A stretch of DNA of 64,000 bases, from the NCBI GenBank assembly GCA_020692325.1, contig JAIMKR010000001.1:214953-278952 (forward strand), read 5' to 3'. This DNA comes from Desulfocurvus sp. Lineage in GTDB: Bacteria > Desulfobacterota > Desulfovibrionia > Desulfovibrionales > Desulfovibrionaceae. Shown here one piece after another: positions 7,681-62,372 of this stretch (position 1 is the first letter of the stretch; each line of letters opens with the position of its first letter). The position numbers and the translations under genes are program-made. Below the pieces are notes generated by a model. That model was not told the DNA's origin and searched no databases. It saw only the letters and a list, made by a program, of their open reading frames with translations.

Positions 7681-7989
7681 ATGTCGCAGTCGAAGCATTG
7701 CGCGCCGGTCACCCTGCCCATCCGCTCAGACCTCATCGCCTGGGCGCAGCTGGTCGAGATGACCCGCGTGGAGCCCGCCACAGTGGCGGAACTCATGGAA
7801 ATGGGCTGGCTGGAGCCGGTGCGCGCCGGCGCGAAGGACTACCTCTTCCGCGAGCGCGACGTGTACCGCATCCAAAAACTTCAACGCCTGTGCCGCGATC
7901 TGGAGATCCCCCACGCGGCCGGCAGCATCATCGTGGACCTGCTGGAACGCGTGGAGCGTCTGCAACAGGAGATTTCCGAGCTGAAGTGA
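7681..7989 (+). CDS. cbpM: Chaperone modulator CbpM (MerR-like)
   Basis: This 102-residue protein has a MerR-like winged-helix fold. The N-terminal region leads into [13 protein letters not shown] and a wing-like [12 protein letters not shown] segment, and the C-terminus is a heptad-rich helix ([17 protein letters not shown]) suited to dimerisation. CbpM proteins bind the J domain of CbpA and restrain it, and related MerR-type proteins can act as heat-shock regulators. The ATG at 7681 is preceded by AGGAGAAGGAG. Its place between cbpA and clpB supports the CbpM call, although direct DNA binding cannot be excluded. Confidence 0.82.
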
Positions 7990-8038
7990 TTGTTGTAAAT
8001 CCGCGGCCAAGCGCCGCGACATCACGGGAGGACATCAT

Positions 8039-10726
8039 ATGGACCCGAACAAGCTGACCCAGAAGTCCCAGTCCGCCCTTTCCGAGGCGCAAAGCCTCGC
8101 CGTCTCGCGCGGGCACCAGCAGGTGGACACCCTGCACCTGCTCGCCGCGCTGGCAGCCCAGGAAGGCGGGCTGGTTCCCCAGATAATCAAAAAATGCGGT
8201 GTTGAGCCGTGCGCGTACGCCCAGGCCGTGGATGCCGAGCTTTCGCGCCTGCCCAGCGTCTCCGGCCCCGGCGCGCAGCCAGGGCAGATCTACGTGACCC
8301 AGGCGGTCTCGGCCGTGCTTGTGCGCGCCGAGGAGACCGCCAAGCGCATGCGGGACGAGTTCGTGAGCGTGGAGCATCTGTTCCTGGCCCTGCTCGACGA
8401 GCCGCCCTCCTTCGGCGCGGGCAAGGTGAACCGCCAGTTCGGCCTCACGCGCGACAAGGTGCTCTCCGCGCTCACCGAGGTGCGCGGCAACCAGCGCGTC
8501 ACCAGCGACAACCCCGAGACCACCTACGACGCCCTCAAGAAATACGGGCGCGACCTGGTGGACGAGGCGAGAAGCGGCAAGCTCGACCCGGTCATCGGCC
8601 GCGATCAGGAGATCCGCCGCGTCATCCGCATCCTCTCGCGCCGCACCAAGAACAACCCGGTGCTCATCGGCGAGGCCGGCGTGGGCAAAACCGCCATCGC
8701 CGAGGGGCTGGCCCAGCGCATCGTCAAGCAAGACGTGCCCGAGGGGCTGAAGGACAAGACCATCTTCGCCCTGGACATGGGCGCGCTCATCGCCGGGGCC
8801 AAGTACCGCGGCGAGTTCGAGGAGCGTCTCAAGGCCGTGCTCAAGGACGTGCAGAAGTCCGAGGGACGCATCCTCCTGTTCATCGACGAGCTGCACACCA
8901 TCGTCGGCGCGGGCAAGACCGAGGGCGCCATGGACGCCGGCAACCTGCTCAAGCCCATGCTCGCCCGCGGGGAGCTGCACTGCATCGGCGCCACCACCAC
9001 CGACGAGTACCGCAAGTACATCGAGAAGGACCCCGCGCTGGAGCGCCGCTTCCAGCCCGTCATGGTGGACGAGCCCAGCCTGGAGGACACCATCTCCATT
9101 CTGCGCGGACTCAAGGAGCGTTTCGAGGTGCACCACGGCGTGCGCATCAGCGACTCGGCCATCGTGGAGGCCGCCACGCTCTCCAGCCGGTACATCAGCG
9201 ACCGGCAGCTGCCTGACAAGGCCATCGACCTCATCGACGAGGCCGCGGCCATGATCCGCACGGACATCGACAGCCTGCCCACGGACCTGGACGAGATCAA
9301 CCGCCGCGTGCTCCAGCTGGAAATCGAACGCGAGGCGCTGCGGCGCGAAACCGACGCCGCCAGCCGCGACCGCCTGGAGAAGCTGGAGGAGGAGCTCGCC
9401 GAACTCAAGACCAAGCAGGCCGAAATGACCGCCCAGTGGGAGCGCGAGAAGAGCGCCATCGAGGTGGTGCGGCACATCAAGGCCGAAATCGAGCAGACCC
9501 GGCACGACATCGAGGAGGCCGAGCGCGCCCTGGACTACAACCGCGCGGCCGAGCTGCGCTACGGCAAGCTGAACGCCCTGGAGAAGCAGCTGGCCGACAG
9601 CGCTCCCAAGGAGGACGATGCCCCGCGCCTGCTCAGGGAGGAGGTCGGCCCGGACGACATCGCCCAGATCGTCTCCCGCTGGACGGGCATTCCCGTGGCG
9701 CGGCTGGTGGAGGGCGAACGCGAGAAGCTGCTGCGCCTGCCCGAGGTGCTGCACCAGCGCGTGGTGGGCCAGGAGGAGGCGGTACAGGCCGTGGCCGACG
9801 CCGTGCTGCGCGCCCGCGCCGGCCTGAAGGACCCGCGCCGGCCCATCGGCAGCTTCCTGTTCCTCGGCCCCACCGGCGTGGGCAAGACCGAGCTGTGCAA
9901 GACGCTCGCCGAGGCCCTGTTCGACACCGAGGACAACATGATCCGCCTGGACATGAGCGAATACATGGAGAAGCACTCCGTGGCGCGCCTCATCGGCTCG
10001 CCCCCGGGCTACGTGGGCTACGACGAGGGCGGCCAACTCACCGAGGCCGTGCGTCGCAAGCCCTTCAGCGTGGTGCTCTTCGACGAGGTGGAGAAGGCGC
10101 ACCCGGACGTGTTCAACACGCTGCTCCAGATTCTGGACGACGGCCGGCTGACCGACAGCCACGGCCGCACGGTGGACTTCAAGAACACCATTCTCATCAT
10201 GACGAGCAACATCGGCGCGCAGTACATGCTGCTGGGCATCAACGAGGACGGCACCTTCGCCCCGGGCGTGGAGGAGCAGGTCATGCAGGACCTGCGGGCG
10301 CATTTCCGGCCCGAGTTCCTGAACCGCGTGGACGAGACGGTGCTGTTCAAGCCGCTGCGGCAGGCCCAGCTCATGGCCATCATCGAGCTGTTGGCCGACG
10401 GGTTGCGCTCGCGCCTGGCCGACCGCAAGATGGGACTCGAAATCACCGACGCGGCCAAGTCCTTCATGGCGGCCGCCGCCTACGACCCCGTGTACGGCGC
10501 GCGCCCGCTGCGCCGCTACCTGCAGACGCACCTGGAAACGCGGCTGGCCCGGGAGATCATCGCCGGGAACATCGCGGACGGGGCGCAGATCGTGGTGGAC
10601 GAGCAGGACGGCCGCATCGTCTTCGGCATGAGGGACGAGGACGGCGGCGTGGTCTTCGACGCCGAGACCGGGCCCGCCGGCCCGGCGGATTCCGCTTCCG
10701 GCGAGCCGCCGCGCAGCATCCAGTGA
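8039..10726 (+). CDS. clpB: ATP-dependent disaggregase ClpB
   Basis: This 895-residue Hsp100 protein works with DnaK, CbpA and GrpE to dissolve protein aggregates. An N-terminal Clp repeat domain spans about residues 1-145. The first AAA+ module has Walker A GEAGVGKT at 211-218. A long coiled-coil middle domain (about 400-520, [14 protein letters not shown]) identifies ClpB rather than ClpA or ClpC. The second AAA+ module has GPTGVGKT at 610-617. After the small D2 domain an acidic tail follows ([10 protein letters not shown], then DEDGG) that is longer than in most ClpB proteins. A second, broken copy of this tail lies at 12.14 kb. The ATG at 8039 is preceded by GGGAGG. A strong terminator follows. 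Confidence 0.97.
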
Positions 10727-10742
10727 TATCGGCCATACACAG

Positions 10743-10768
10743 GGGAGCCCTCCGGGGCTCCCTTTTTT
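10743..10768 (+). terminator. Rho-independent terminator of the clpB operon
   Basis: An 8-bp GC stem (GGGAGCCC / GGGCTCCC) with a TCCG loop is followed directly by six T residues, 16 bp after the clpB stop. Confidence 0.92.
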
Positions 10769-11061
10769 GGGGCGCAACGCCCCCTGTCGGCACGCATGGC
10801 GCGAACGCGCATCCACCGTGCCCCACCAATTGCGTCCCGCCCACGTCGTGGGGGCGGCGCCCTTCGCGCCTCCGCTTCACCGACGGTGGGAGGGCCGCGC
10901 GCCTTCCCCTCATTTCAACCATTTTGCCCTGGCGTAATCCGGGCGGACGCGGTACATGGCAGGAAAGCGACGCAGCCGTATGAAACGTGCCCCCGGACAC
11001 GGCCGACCCCGCTCAGCCCTGCGTTCCTTCACACATGAGCAATGTCATCGAGGGAACTTCC
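10769..11061. other. Intergenic region between clpB and the GGDEF gene
   Basis: The region starts with a second small hairpin (GGGGCG / CGCCCC, 10769-10783). No gene or convincing promoter was recognised in the rest. Confidence 0.5.
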
Positions 11062-12081
11062 ATGCGCCCGGAATGCGAAAAACTCATCCGCGCCCTCTTC
11101 GACCGCTACATCGAAATGTACGCGGACCGCGACGACGCGCTGACCAGGCACTTCAGCGAGGATTTCAGCGGGTTCGCCGGCGGCGGCGATGTCCTGGTCA
11201 AAAGCCGGCGCGAATGGATCGATGTCACACGCCACGACTTCTCGCAGGTGCCCGGCCGCATCCGCATCGACATGGTCGATCTCGCGCTCCAGGACATCAG
11301 CGAAGACGTGGTCATCACCACGGCCTTCTTCCACATCCACCTGCCATTCGACGAGGCTATTTTGTCGCGGGAAACCGCGCGCCTCGTGCTGGTGTTCCGC
11401 CGCGAGGGGGAGGACTGGAAGATCGTCAGCAGCACCATTTCCATTCCATATCGTCTGGTTCAGGACGGCGAGGTGTACCCGCTGCGCAGCCTGTACGCGC
11501 GCAACCTCGAGCTGGAGAAGCTGGTGGAGGAGCGCACCCGGGCGCTGGCGGAGAGCAACGCGAGACTGGAGGCGATGAGCAACACCGATTCGCTGACGAA
11601 CATCGCCAACCGCCGCAACTTCGACAGCACCCTGGCGCAGGAGTGGAACCGCGCCCTGCGCGCCGGCCGTCCGCTCGCGCTCATCATCCTCGATGTGGAC
11701 CACTTCAAGCACTACAACGACCACTACGGGCATGTGGCGGGCGATGACTGCCTCAAGGCCCTGGCCCAAACGCTAGTCAAGGCCGAACGACGCGCCGGAA
11801 GGCTGGTGGCGCGCTATGGCGGCGAGGAATTCGTGGCGCTCATGCCGGAAACCACGCAGGACGAGGTTCTGGCGGCCGCCCGGCATATCCAGGCAAAGAT
11901 ATGGGAGCTCGCCCTGCCCCACGCGGAAACGGAACCCGGCATCGTCACCGTCAGCCTGGGGGCCATCAGCGTGGTGCCCACAATGGAGCACACGCCGGAT
12001 TTCCTGCTGCGGCAGGCCGACGCGGCGCTGTACCGGGCCAAGTCCCAGGGCCGCAACCAAGTGCGTGGGCCGGCGGACTGA
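11062..12081 (+). CDS. GGDEF diguanylate cyclase with NTF2/SnoaL-like sensor domain
   Basis: This 339-residue soluble protein has an N-terminal domain of about 130 residues that resembles the SnoaL/NTF2-like fold (HFSEDFSGFAGGGD, then LVFRREGEDWKIVSSTIS). A short coiled coil (LEKLVEERTRALAESNARLE) and a GGDEF domain follow. The active-site motif is GGEEF at 253-257, a catalytically competent variant. The usual inhibitory RxxD site five residues upstream is replaced by RLVA, so product feedback by c-di-GMP is probably lost. The ATG at 11062 follows GAGGGA; an ATG at 11035 is possible but lacks a ribosome site. It should make c-di-GMP in response to a small ligand bound by the N-terminal pocket, which is inference. 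Confidence 0.83.
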   Translation: MRPECEKLIRALFDRYIEMYADRDDALTRHFSEDFSGFAGGGDVLVKSRREWIDVTRHDFSQVPGRIRIDMVDLALQDISEDVVITTAFFHIHLPFDEAILSRETARLVLVFRREGEDWKIVSSTISIPYRLVQDGEVYPLRSLYARNLELEKLVEERTRALAESNARLEAMSNTDSLTNIANRRNFDSTLAQEWNRALRAGRPLALIILDVDHFKHYNDHYGHVAGDDCLKALAQTLVKAERRAGRLVARYGGEEFVALMPETTQDEVLAAARHIQAKIWELALPHAETEPGIVTVSLGAISVVPTMEHTPDFLLRQADAALYRAKSQGRNQVRGPAD

Positions 12082-12138
12082 ACCGGGCAGTGTGGACGCG
12101 GAGCGGCGCACGGAAAATTATATAGGAATGCCTGCACA

Positions 12139-12372
12139 TTGAAAATCCTCTCCGACTACATCAAGAACAACGTGCGGATCATGGTAGACGAGCAGGACGG
12201 CCGCATCGTCTTCGGTGTGAAGGACGAGGACGGCACCCCCGTGTTCGACGCGCAGACGAGCGACATAGCGAAGATGGATGCGGGCAGTAAGGTGCAGAAA
12301 ATGATCCAACCAGGACGTGAACAACAGCAATGGTATTGCTGTTGTTCACGTCCAAGCCCCGGCAATGCCTAG
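12139..12372 (+). pseudogene. Fragment of a clpB 3' end
   Basis: A short open frame beginning with TTG encodes about 40 residues that match the ClpB C-terminal tail, including [11 protein letters not shown] and DEDG, then runs into unrelated sequence and stops. At DNA level 29 consecutive bases (12187-12215) are identical to clpB 10598-10626, and a further GGACGAGGACGGC block is shared. The flanking codons are diverged, so this is the end of a related but non-identical clpB, not a recent exact duplication. No upstream ClpB domains are present. It may be the remnant of a lost second clpB or a fragment carried in by an insertion. Translation is possible but there is no sign of function. Confidence 0.75.
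12313..12353. repeat. Perfect 19-bp inverted repeat with 3-base loop
   Basis: The left arm GGACGTGAACAACAGCAAT (12313-12331) and the right arm (12335-12353) are exact reverse complements around the loop GGT. There is no T tract, so it is a poor terminator. It sits between the clpB fragment and the AT-rich gene, at the border where base composition changes. It could mark an insertion end or fold in the 5' leader of the AT-rich gene. Confidence 0.9.
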
Positions 12373-12382
12373 GACAATACCT

Positions 12383-13069
12383 ATGACGAGAGAACAAACA
12401 GATATTTCAAAATCTATTATCGAGTTTATGCAAAGTCTAATCTGGTACCTTGAGTCTAGAAACTGGGGCTTCACAAAAATCATCACATGTCCGCATGGCA
12501 GCCACCCAACAGACATAAGGATTCACCACCACCTATATTTTACAAGCCTAATTTCAGCCATAGAGTATACTTCTGCATATGTCGGAAACATAAACAAAAA
12601 CGAAATGGTATACACAAAACCAGAATGTTACTTTGACAACTCGGATGACTATAATTACGCAAAAGAATTAAGAAATGCAATTGTTCACCGAGGATTCGAC
12701 CCAAACACAGCCGGAAGATCAGTTAGCGGAATTTTGCTAATAAAATGCCCGGGCAGTGTACACAACAAAAACTGCACCAAAACTTATTCAGTAAATTTTG
12801 CATATACATCTGATTTAGTTTCACATCTCAACCACACAACAAATCAAACATTACTCTCAGCGTTAACTTCAATTGGCATTTTTGAACATATAGATTTTCG
12901 AATTTACCCAGAGGAACTGATGGAAGACATACAATACTCTGACATAATCCCTGAATGGGCCAAAGCTATGGCTGCTCAAACGATAGGCACTCTCAATTTC
13001 GACGAAATAGCTTCGGATATAGTTCGCTCGCTTCAAGCTAAGTTAAGAGAACTGCTAAGCGTATCCTGA
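12383..13069 (+). CDS. AT-rich orphan protein with HEPN-like R-x4-H motif
   Basis: This 228-residue protein is not assigned to a known named gene. The coding sequence is clearly AT-rich with many AAA, ATA and AGA codons, unlike the GC-rich surroundings, which points to recent transfer. The mostly helical N-terminal half carries ELRNAIVHRGFDP, where R97 and H102 form the R-x4-H spacing of HEPN nuclease domains (often RNxxxH). Pro/His- and Cys-containing stretches (CPHGSHP; CPGSVHNKNC) surround it. The ATG at 12383 follows AGGA; in-frame ATGs at 12317 and 12365 would add residues encoded by the hairpin region. No nucleotidyltransferase antitoxin or other partner is adjacent. A role as a lone anti-phage or toxin protein is plausible but unproven; the HEPN call rests on the motif alone. 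Confidence 0.5.
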   Translation: MTREQTDISKSIIEFMQSLIWYLESRNWGFTKIITCPHGSHPTDIRIHHHLYFTSLISAIEYTSAYVGNINKNEMVYTKPECYFDNSDDYNYAKELRNAIVHRGFDPNTAGRSVSGILLIKCPGSVHNKNCTKTYSVNFAYTSDLVSHLNHTTNQTLLSALTSIGIFEHIDFRIYPEELMEDIQYSDIIPEWAKAMAAQTIGTLNFDEIASDIVRSLQAKLRELLSVS

Positions 13070-13114
13070 TCTGTTCTAAACGATGCATTTGCTATCTACT
13101 TATATCGTATAGTC

Positions 13115-13120
13115 TATAAT
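13115..13120 (+). promoter_or_regulatory. Candidate -10 box upstream of the M29 aminopeptidase gene
   Basis: A perfect TATAAT lies 36 bp before the start codon in an AT-rich stretch. No good -35 is present at the usual spacing; TTGCTA lies 20 bp upstream of it. This is weak evidence for a promoter left at the edge of the AT-rich island. Confidence 0.3.
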
Positions 13121-13156
13121 CGTTCACTTCTTGTCACTGTATGCTCTGGAAATAAA

Positions 13157-14362
13157 ATGCCCCACCTCTCCCCCGACCAACTCGCCGCCTACGCCGAAGT
13201 CCTGCTGTGGGCCATGCGCAGCAGCCGCGCGGTGCCGTTCAAGCACGGCGATCTGGTGCTGGTGCGCTACGACGCGGCGGCGCTGCCGCTGGCCGAGGCG
13301 GTCTACGCCGCCCTCATTGAGGCGCACCTGCACCCCGTGGCCTCGGCCATGCCCACCAGCGCCATGCAGGCCCAGCACTACGGCAACTCCAGCTTCGGCC
13401 AGCTCACGTTCATTCCCCCCGGCCTGGACGAGCTGTTCCGCGCCACGGCCGGCTGCATCACCATCCTCGCGCCGGACAGCCTCACCGCCCTGTCCGACAT
13501 CGACCCGCGCAGCATCGCCCAGGGCGAACTGGCCGAGGCCCGCACCCAGCAGGTTCTGGCCCACCGCCGACGCCTGGGGCTGCTCGGCGCCACGGTGTGC
13601 CTCTACCCCACGGAGGCGCTCGCCCAGGCCAGCGGCATGGCGCTCGATGAATACGCCGAGCGCCTCGCCCGCGCGTGCCTGCTGCTCATGCCCGAGCCCG
13701 TGGCCCAGTGGCGGCGCGTGCAGAAGGAGCTGGGCGACATCGCCGCCTGGCTGAACGGCCTCAACATCCAACGCCTGCACGTGCAGAGCGAGCACATGGA
13801 CCTGACGCTCGCCCCGGGCGAAAGCCGCCGCTTCGTCGGTGTCACCGGCAGCAACGTGCCGGGCTTCGAGCTCTACCTCGCACCGGACTGGCGCACGGTT
13901 TCCGGCGTGTACTACGCGGACCAGCCGAGCATCCGCTGGGGGCGGCTCGTCTCCCGCGCGCGGTTGGAATTCCACGACGGCGTGGCCGTGGAGGCCACGG
14001 CCGACGCCGGCGGCACGTTCCTCACCGGCCGCATGACGGCCGACCCCGGCGCGCGCCGCGTGGGCGAATTCTCGCTGACGGACAAGCGCGTGTCCAAGGT
14101 GGAGCGCTTCATGGCCCACACGCTGCTGGACGAGAACCACGGTGGAACCACGGGCAATTGCCACATAGCCCTTGGCGGGGCCAGCGCCGCCAGCTTCGCC
14201 GGTCCAGCGGACGAGCTGACGCCCGAACGCGAGGACAGCCTCGGCTTCAACAGCTCCACCCTGCACTGGGATCTGGTGAACATCGAGGAGAAGCGCGTGA
14301 CTGCATGGCTTGCCGGCGGTGGCAGGCGCACGATCTACGAGAACGGCCAGTTCCTCGTCTGA
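13157..14362 (+). CDS. M29-family metal-dependent aminopeptidase
   Basis: This 401-residue protein resembles thermophilic-type M29 aminopeptidases (AmpS/PepS/aminopeptidase T), which release N-terminal residues using a two-metal centre. Visible signatures are the DWRTVSG segment in the middle, ERFMAHTLLDENHGG followed by GNCHIALGGA, and HWDLV near the C-terminus, which carry the conserved Glu, His and Asp ligands. Length fits the family at about 400 residues. The protein looks cytosolic, with no signal peptide. The gene starts immediately after the AT-rich island and returns to host-like GC content. A stretch of about 220 bp separates it from grpE. Its physiological substrates are unknown. 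Confidence 0.85.
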   Translation: MPHLSPDQLAAYAEVLLWAMRSSRAVPFKHGDLVLVRYDAAALPLAEAVYAALIEAHLHPVASAMPTSAMQAQHYGNSSFGQLTFIPPGLDELFRATAGCITILAPDSLTALSDIDPRSIAQGELAEARTQQVLAHRRRLGLLGATVCLYPTEALAQASGMALDEYAERLARACLLLMPEPVAQWRRVQKELGDIAAWLNGLNIQRLHVQSEHMDLTLAPGESRRFVGVTGSNVPGFELYLAPDWRTVSGVYYADQPSIRWGRLVSRARLEFHDGVAVEATADAGGTFLTGRMTADPGARRVGEFSLTDKRVSKVERFMAHTLLDENHGGTTGNCHIALGGASAASFAGPADELTPEREDSLGFNSSTLHWDLVNIEEKRVTAWLAGGGRRTIYENGQFLV

Positions 14363-14446
14363 CGCGGCGCGGCGATTCTCCGCTCCGCCCCGTCACGCGC
14401 CGTGACTTTTTTGACGTTTCGCCGCGCAAACACGCGCCGACGCGTG

Positions 14447-14474
14447 TTGACATGCACTTATCCATGCTTACAAA
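14447..14474 (+). promoter_or_regulatory. Candidate promoter of grpE-dnaK
   Basis: A -35 TTGACA (14447-14452) is followed after 16 bp by TACAAA (14469-14474), a 4/6 match to the -10 consensus. It lies about 115 bp before grpE and leaves a leader containing a strong hairpin. Confidence 0.5.
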
Positions 14475-14487
14475 TGAGGCTGACTCA

Positions 14488-14524
14488 GACGCCGGGCGAA
14501 GCTGTTGGAGAGCCGCCCGGCGTC
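14488..14524 (+). other. Leader hairpin upstream of grpE
   Basis: A perfect 11-bp inverted repeat (GACGCCGGGCG / CGCCCGGCGTC) with a 15-base loop lies in the presumed 5' untranslated region of grpE-dnaK. It has no T tract. It may be an mRNA structure affecting stability or translation, or the end of the preceding transcript. Confidence 0.5.
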
Positions 14525-61597: not shown

Positions 61598-62139
61598 GGT
61601 GACCTCCACTAGGTTGGTGGCTGAAAGGAGATGTACCCTACCCTTGGGGCTTTGTAAAACTCCAAGTGCGCTTGCGTTTAAAAACGCTTTTCCTCGTTTC
61701 GGACGGAGGGAAGGCGGAAGGCCCTCCTGGACGGCGGTGACGGGCTCTCGTCGGGAGGCATTCCGAATTCCCCCGGCTTGTGAGCGGCTCACATATTATC
61801 ATTGTGGTGTTCCGGGGGACAAAGTCAAGCCCAACCCAATGCCGGCGCGGAATTTTCCCGACCGAGCGTGATGCCGGACGTTCGCCGAAAGCAAACTGCC
61901 ACCATTTTACATTTTCGTTACAACTGGCGATCCTTTGGAATTATTACCCAAAATTCGGCAAAATGTGGTGTCCCCTTTTCAAGCATGACCTGCGCCGAAT
62001 GGTGTACTTTAGCGAGCAAGACAGCCCATACCATTCCCGCCGGTTCAAGGATAAAGCCAAGTTCAACAAATACGTTATCAACTCTTCAAGAACAATAGCC
62101 TCTTCACGGCGACCGAAAGCAAACGATCCAACGATTATT

Positions 62140-62155
62140 CCATTATTCATAATGG
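62140..62155. promoter_or_regulatory. Palindrome upstream of amt (possible activator site)
   Basis: CCATTAT-TC-ATAATGG is a perfect 7-2-7 palindrome 165 bp upstream of the -24/-12 promoter. Sigma-54 promoters need an upstream activator site at about this distance. The sequence does not match the enteric NtrC consensus, so the binding protein is unknown. Confidence 0.4.
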
Positions 62156-62220
62156 TTATTGCAGAATTATTGTTCTGAAGGGGATTGATCGTCTCGATCT
62201 TCAAATCCAGTGAGTAAACG

Positions 62221-62246
62221 AAATTATTGCATAATTGTAATAATTT
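62221..62246. promoter_or_regulatory. AT-rich inverted repeat upstream of amt
   Basis: AAATTATT and AATAATTT are exact inverted copies separated by 10 bases, about 60 bp upstream of the -24 element. It could bind an activator or a bending protein. Confidence 0.3.
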
Positions 62247-62303
62247 TCACGGCTAGAAATGCCTTTAAAATGCTAACATACTGTATAAATTTATTTTTTA
62301 TAA

Positions 62304-62320
62304 TTGGCCCGGTTCTTGCC
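62304..62320 (+). promoter_or_regulatory. Sigma-54 (-24/-12) promoter of amt
   Basis: TTGGCCCGGTTCTTGCC has GG at 62306-62307 and GC at 62318-62319 with the required 10-base spacing. It lies about 55 bp before the amt start, so transcription should begin near 62331. This fits nitrogen-regulated amt-glnK expression. Confidence 0.82.
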
Positions 62321-62372
62321 TCTGTGCGATCACTGGTTCGTTTCAATTCATCAATTTTTTTTGGAGGGCAGC

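Follow-up and report, generated by a model that had tools for sequence, protein, structure and literature searches.

The window, that is, the whole stretch of 64,000 nucleotides of Desulfocurvus sp. DNA that was analysed, contains an AT-rich gene on the + strand, hereafter the lone gene (its product being the lone protein), which has on one side a GGDEF-type gene, preceded by clpB, and on the other an aminopeptidase-like gene, with grpE and dnaK beyond it (all neighbour names were read from sequences). An earlier note, made from the letters alone, had drawn attention to an intact, strikingly AT-rich gene in a GC-rich chromosome, and this description stands: the GC content of the gene is 38.4% (GC3 36.4%) vs 66.1% for the window, and the open reading frame is complete, with 228 codons, an ATG start and an AGGA eight bases 5' of it. 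An alternative in-frame GTG at 12317 would give a product of 250 aa, but the alignment of the homologues described below starts at the ATG. The positions of the gene, of its main parts and of two elements found on its 5' side are given in Table 1. A second AT-rich stretch (61880-62370, GC about 0.47-0.49 in 700-base windows) is apparently intergenic and precedes an ammonium-transporter-like gene.

Table 1. The lone gene, its predicted functional parts and the neighbouring 5' elements (window coordinates).
Feature	Position	Strand	Basis
Lone gene, unnamed HEPN-like family, 228 aa	12383..13069	+	open reading frame; 15 homologue loci
Codons R97 to H102 (RNAIVH), predicted RNase motif, end of helix 3	12671..12688	+	conserved in alignment; model helix 88-102
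Codon E61, acidic residue in helix 2	12563..12565	+	alignment; model helix 42-73
Residues 105-228 (C-terminal): beta-hairpin region, then four helices, putatively sensing or regulating	12695..13066	+	secondary structure of the model; function putative
Perfect 19-bp inverted repeat with 3-nt loop, 5' of the lone gene, possible RNA element	12313..12353	.	z -6.66; single exact copy in the genome
Fragment resembling the ClpB C-terminus (51% to the ClpB end), possible insertion scar	12142..12288	+	sequence comparison

The note had also read R97 and H102 as a pair in the R-x4-H spacing of HEPN nucleases. The pair is present, and R97-N-A-I-V-H102 is the sole RX4H and the sole RX4-6H pair of the lone protein. 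Taken by itself, such a motif is no evidence, as it is frequent in shuffled copies: among 5000 residue shuffles of the lone protein, RX4H occurs in 33%, RX4-6H in 70% and R[NDH]X3H in 5.8%. Conservation of the motif across a family, unlike the motif alone, is evidence.

Single-sequence searches with the lone protein found no credible relative in 59 related genomes (its own included), in 395 genomes of the phylum, or in genome contigs, viral contigs, plasmids and phages. Weak rows, apart from four (in G008, G003, G002 and G043), were read and rejected: L002, L003, L005 and L008 all give the same unrelated protein, L006 and L007 give a second such protein with matches outside the motif, L004 is a frame interrupted by a stop, L009 lies inside an unrelated long ORF, and L010 is a stop-containing frame opposite a bL9-like gene (name read from sequence). 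Searches with degenerate DNA patterns built on the motif region hit first one and then three viral contigs, whose proteins align with the lone protein at pairwise E values of 8e-22, 1e-19 and 3e-12. The resulting four-sequence alignment was used to scan genome contigs, where 12 of 532 pattern matches were confirmed (Paraburkholderia, Caballeronia, two in Paludibacterium, Azotobacter, Pseudacidovorax, Martelella, Acinetobacter, Azoarcus, a Sulfuricella MAG, a Proteobacteria MAG and Paenibacillus), and viral contigs, where it yielded four loci. Searches of phages and plasmids with the proteins of L049 and L050 gave no matches. The family alignment comprises the lone protein and 15 homologues, to each of which it is 23-28% identical; L064 and L067 are without the N-terminal part, L066, one of the four viral loci, was left out as the same protein as that of the Acinetobacter locus, and L078, found later, stands outside the alignment. 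The family was found in the genome of the window only among the 395 genomes of the phylum scan, in the centre genome only among 398 of the phylum around Azotobacter, and in 3 of 299 genomes of the taxonomic family around that of Paraburkholderia, two of the three being already known. It is thus a rare family with a patchy distribution.

Twelve columns of the 16-row alignment are invariant, including the start Met, Y92, E95, L96, R97, N98, H102 and R103. According to PMC3710099, the HEPN motif closes helix 3, its arginine is followed by a polar residue (N, D or H), and many families carry an acidic residue in helix 2. The family agrees with this description on each point: the Rx4-6H pair (R97 and H102) and the polar residue directly after R (N98) are identical in 16/16 rows, as is R103, and residue 61, placed in helix 2 by the model, is acidic in all 15 rows covering it (E in 13, D in 2), with the acidic motif not seen there in its Ex3[KR] form. 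A first AlphaFold model, based on the single sequence, had a pLDDT of 30.7 and was discarded, while the model from 16 sequences (pLDDT 82, pTM 0.77) is mainly a helical bundle, with helices at residues 3-34, 42-73 and 88-102, a beta-hairpin region at 111-136 and further helices from 142, and R97-H102 falls at the end of helix 88-102, as in the published HEPN position. The earlier note would have been refuted by a predicted structure lacking a HEPN four-helix bundle; this outcome was not obtained, the model being a helical bundle whose fold match is compatible with HEPN only. Foldseek with the model returned nothing at E <= 0.001 in the PDB or among viral models. VIA-align lists 50 rows, seven of them HEPN toxin chains (Z 6.1-7.4), and other HEPN chains may match beyond this list. 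The seven include 7ae6 (Z 7.4), 6m6w (Z 7.1, rmsd 3.2, 107 aligned) and 5yep (Z 6.7, rmsd 3.2, 106 aligned), together with 7ae9 and 6m6u, these five spanning Z 6.7-7.4; 7bxo and 5yep are counted here as HEPN chains, as background or following PMC11087260. The top row is LGN/Inscuteable (Z 8.8), and at Z about 7 several receptor-BRIL and designed bundles score as high as the HEPN chains. The fold search is compatible with HEPN, and not decisive.

To which HEPN family might the protein belong? The profile search that had been proposed matched it to no named family where tested (Pfam, PADLOC, NCBIfam, PHROGs and hhalign). The lone protein has no match at E <= 10 in Pfam, PADLOC or NCBIfam, one in PHROGs (E 0.31) and, among PDB sequences, a best E of 0.58 to 40S ribosomal protein S17. 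The best values for the 16 family members, each in one member, are E 0.053 in Pfam, 0.015 in NCBIfam and 0.08 in PHROGs, with nothing at E <= 1 in PADLOC, and PDB searches with the family profile and with the L063 protein gave no credible match. Comparison of the family by hhalign with alignments of three HEPN-type families, HepT, DUF4145 and RiboL-PSP HEPN (built from 20, 12 and 5 sequences), gave probabilities of 1.1, 2.7 and 0.6%, vs 22.8, 0.55 and 0.29% for a reversed decoy, and the stretches aligned with HepT and DUF4145 include the motif. The lone protein is HEPN-like and probably HEPN, with no match to any named HEPN family tested. One candidate identity is Bxe_C0808, presumably a Burkholderia-type locus tag. 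PMC3710099, which used HHpred at 75-98%, lists it among HEPN families without Pfam entries, and the present family may already be known there; no description of the family was found among the papers searched.

Several characterized systems offer points of comparison. The lone protein resembles the HEPN toxin of the MNT/HEPN (HepT-MntA) system in its RN-x3-H motif and in the alignment of HEPN toxin chains to its model, and differs from it in its beta-hairpin region and extra C-terminal helices, in the low hhalign probability, and in having neither an MNT nor another partner shared among the loci; HepT (PF01934) of Pfam is not matched. It shares with the DUF4145 protein PD-T7-4, treated in PMC9519451 as an anti-phage system, the character of a small single protein, and a PD-T7-4 homologue comes next after the family gene of L063; DUF4145 itself is matched at E 0.074 by 1 of 16 members, and neither this nor the hhalign value is a significant match. 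PDB 3jrt is a lone HEPN protein, carried by an integron cassette according to PMC3710099, and is absent from the PDB sequence matches of the family profile up to E 10. The nearest functional parallel, by analogy, would be Tha. As reported in PMC11087260, Tha-1 and Tha-2 of Staphylococcus prophages are single HEPN proteins with the motif RNSIMH that give phage defence; phage tail proteins act as the trigger, and H270A abolishes the activity. Tha-1 (301 aa) has its HEPN domain at the C-terminus, and an overlapping antisense gene, ith, encodes the product that restrains it. The lone protein has RNAIVH, some homologues have RNSIVH, and some are found on viral contigs; unlike Tha as published, it has 228 aa, its motif lies at 97-102 and no partner is seen.

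Within the genus, no credible match to the lone protein was found in 14 other genomes. The insertion site, located by orthologues of the downstream gene, was compared in 10 of these 14 (the comparison omits G001 and G006, with partial orthologue matches, G010, with a 45% paralogue only, and G005, with no match), and the lone gene is absent in 10/10, so that presence in all relatives, the outcome which the earlier note had set against itself, was not obtained. What lies there is variable. In G007, the closest genome by flanking genes, the site is occupied by an AT-rich gene pair forming a CBASS (L039:1705-3144), with matches to CD-NTase (7.2e-96), the 2TM effector (2.2e-35) and Cap15 (5.8e-21). 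An HNH protein is found in G012 and G003 (L042:1765-2427 and L043:2778-3440), an AT-rich 132-aa orphan with no Pfam match in G004 (L045:1750-2148), GC-rich ORFs in G011 and G013, and gaps of 4-112 bases in G002, G008, G009 and G014, the last of which has an AT-rich DUF5677 gene nearer clpB (L041:4755-5507). The L042 copy of the HNH protein carries homing-endonuclease-associated repeats. Next to the accessory gene in the window, and likewise in G003 (L043:2560-2679), is a fragment resembling the ClpB C-terminus, and such fragments are possibly scars of insertion at the clpB 3' end. The composition of the lone gene, its absence from the compared genus genomes and its patchy, distant homologues support the foreign origin, by horizontal acquisition, proposed at the outset.

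The family itself appears to move horizontally. BLAST among nine homologue loci confines similar DNA to the gene and its flanks, at most from -120 to +851 relative to the start, with two short chance-like matches as the sole exceptions and unrelated surroundings, and one Paludibacterium genome holds two 98% identical copies (-120 to +838). At L053, L054, L056, L057 and L058, which are unrelated places on chromosomes, the gene by itself makes up a discrete unit of about 0.9 kb whose 3' flank contains an imperfect palindrome and lacks a canonical attC core. The possibility that the 3' flank is a genome-wide repeat was rejected, as it was found in 4 of 7 genomes, each time at the gene, plus one 22-base match elsewhere. 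At L063, an attC-like site (7934-7997) ends three bases 5' of the start codon and a second attC-like palindrome lies 3' of the gene; both stretches fold with low z scores (-6.05 and -6.62), and a strict attC finder accepts only the first. Isolated sites were also reported by this finder at L061, at L064 and at another place in L063, and 30 shuffled loci yielded 3; single calls away from a gene mean little, as they are also found in shuffled loci. It gave no attC in 10701-14500 of the window, and the idea that the lone gene is a present-day integron cassette was rejected, with no attC beside it.

Neighbouring ORFs of at least 60 aa were compared across the 15 homologue loci and the window, over up to 5-6 kb per side and less in short loci, and none is similar in more than two loci; similar ORFs link only four pairs of loci, in one case through a frame that overlaps the family gene, and none is a candidate partner. 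The absence of a partner gene, noted originally for the one locus, thus extends across all 15 homologue loci as far as compared, and a toxin-antitoxin pair with a protein partner was rejected on this basis. Neighbours picked by eye at 4 of the 15 loci, a choice that carries no statistical weight, were scanned for defence families. At L063 (the Sulfuricella MAG) the homologue is preceded by a HigB/HTH pair and directly followed by a PD-T7-4 protein (5.5e-85), with BrnT/CopG farther along; two genes away from the homologue of L062 stands an FRG protein that matches PDC-S15 (1e-66); a caspase-like protein is found at L060; and at L068 two neighbouring genes are without a Pfam match. The stretch L063:7313-10841, from HigB/HTH through the family gene and PD-T7-4 to BrnT/CopG, is a probable cassette array. 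On the viral contig of L068, a second lone ORF with an LRNKMIH motif (10224-10808) lies near the homologue, with no Pfam or PADLOC match. The earlier view of the lone gene as a defence gene or toxin has thereby gained a defence-like setting at some loci (CBASS, PD-T7-4, PDC-S15), and the RNase or defence role itself stays predicted.

The reading that we favour, somewhat above an even chance, is that the lone gene encodes a solitary HEPN-like ribonuclease, most likely a one-gene abortive-infection effector, from a rare, unnamed, horizontally moving family. What has been computed is the gene with its foreign composition, its family and that family's invariant motif, the bundle predicted for the protein, the variable site and the lack of a common partner. 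From these we infer catalysis, dimerisation, a phage trigger and an outcome for the cell: the predicted RNase would stay quiet in healthy cells, and a phage cue would lead to its dimerisation or to a change of shape, after which the activated protein would cut RNA, helped by E61, via R97, N98 and H102 where helix 3 ends, and the part after residue 105 may sense or regulate. As a HEPN enzyme it would be expected to work independently of metal, and its cuts to leave a 2',3'-cyclic phosphate (PMC3710099). A broader version, rather less probable and put forward tentatively, is that the family as a whole is an undescribed, self-contained HEPN defence system of about 230 aa, combining sensor and RNase with no need of an antitoxin, and spreading as a bare one-gene unit across phyla into hot spots of accessory genes; its vehicle could be an integron cassette, viral cargo or the unclassified unit of about 0.9 kb.

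Phage defence need not be the selected role. A HEPN-like RNase carried as integron or viral cargo might instead slow growth or induce dormancy under stress, as PMC3710099 proposes for HEPN proteins of integron cassettes, and the L063 homologue does stand directly after an attC-like site, among toxin-antitoxin genes. Phage defence is the role better suggested by the PD-T7-4, PDC-S15 and CBASS genes that lie at these loci or close by, and we consider the dormancy role unlikely, although the two roles are not exclusive. The lone protein could also be a toxin held by an RNA antitoxin, as AbiF is with RCd22, in which case the 41-nt upstream hairpin would be that RNA or part of it. This hairpin is perfect and lies 30-70 bases 5' of the ATG, and AbiF of C. 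difficile likewise combines an RNQCAH motif with a stable RNA hairpin upstream (PMC12373285). Membership of AbiF/AbiD finds no support in Abi_2 of Pfam or in the abiF RNA of Rfam, neither of which is matched, and Rfam gives no match at E <= 1 over 12000-13300. The inverted repeat has no T run, no promoter-like or terminator-like site was found on the + strand from 12080 to the ATG, and the hairpin comes after the ClpB-like fragment and may be an old scar. In the consensus fold of five 3' flanks, 5 of 26 pairs show compensatory changes; however, when five flanks from three homologue loci were compared with shuffles, their folding was no better (z -0.39 to +1.27), and with z near 0 and a weak consensus fold (-14.4 kcal/mol) a conserved structured RNA in the family flanks was rejected. 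An RNA antitoxin is about as improbable as the dormancy role. Least probable of all is that a HEPN-like fold serves for binding only, or that the protein is a non-HEPN helical one with the motif kept for structure: the failed hhalign comparison, the undecided fold search and the chance frequency of the motif in one sequence fit such a view, but R, N and H are invariant at 23-28% identity, at the expected place and with an acidic residue in helix 2.

The family, unnamed in Pfam, NCBIfam, PHROGs and PADLOC, would be missed by defence scans built on them. The stretch from clpB (or the GGDEF gene) to the aminopeptidase-like gene is a variable site, and as such a place to seek more accessory genes in the genus. 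The family would also offer a small, apparently partner-free case in which to ask how a lone HEPN-type RNase is silenced, and then switched on.
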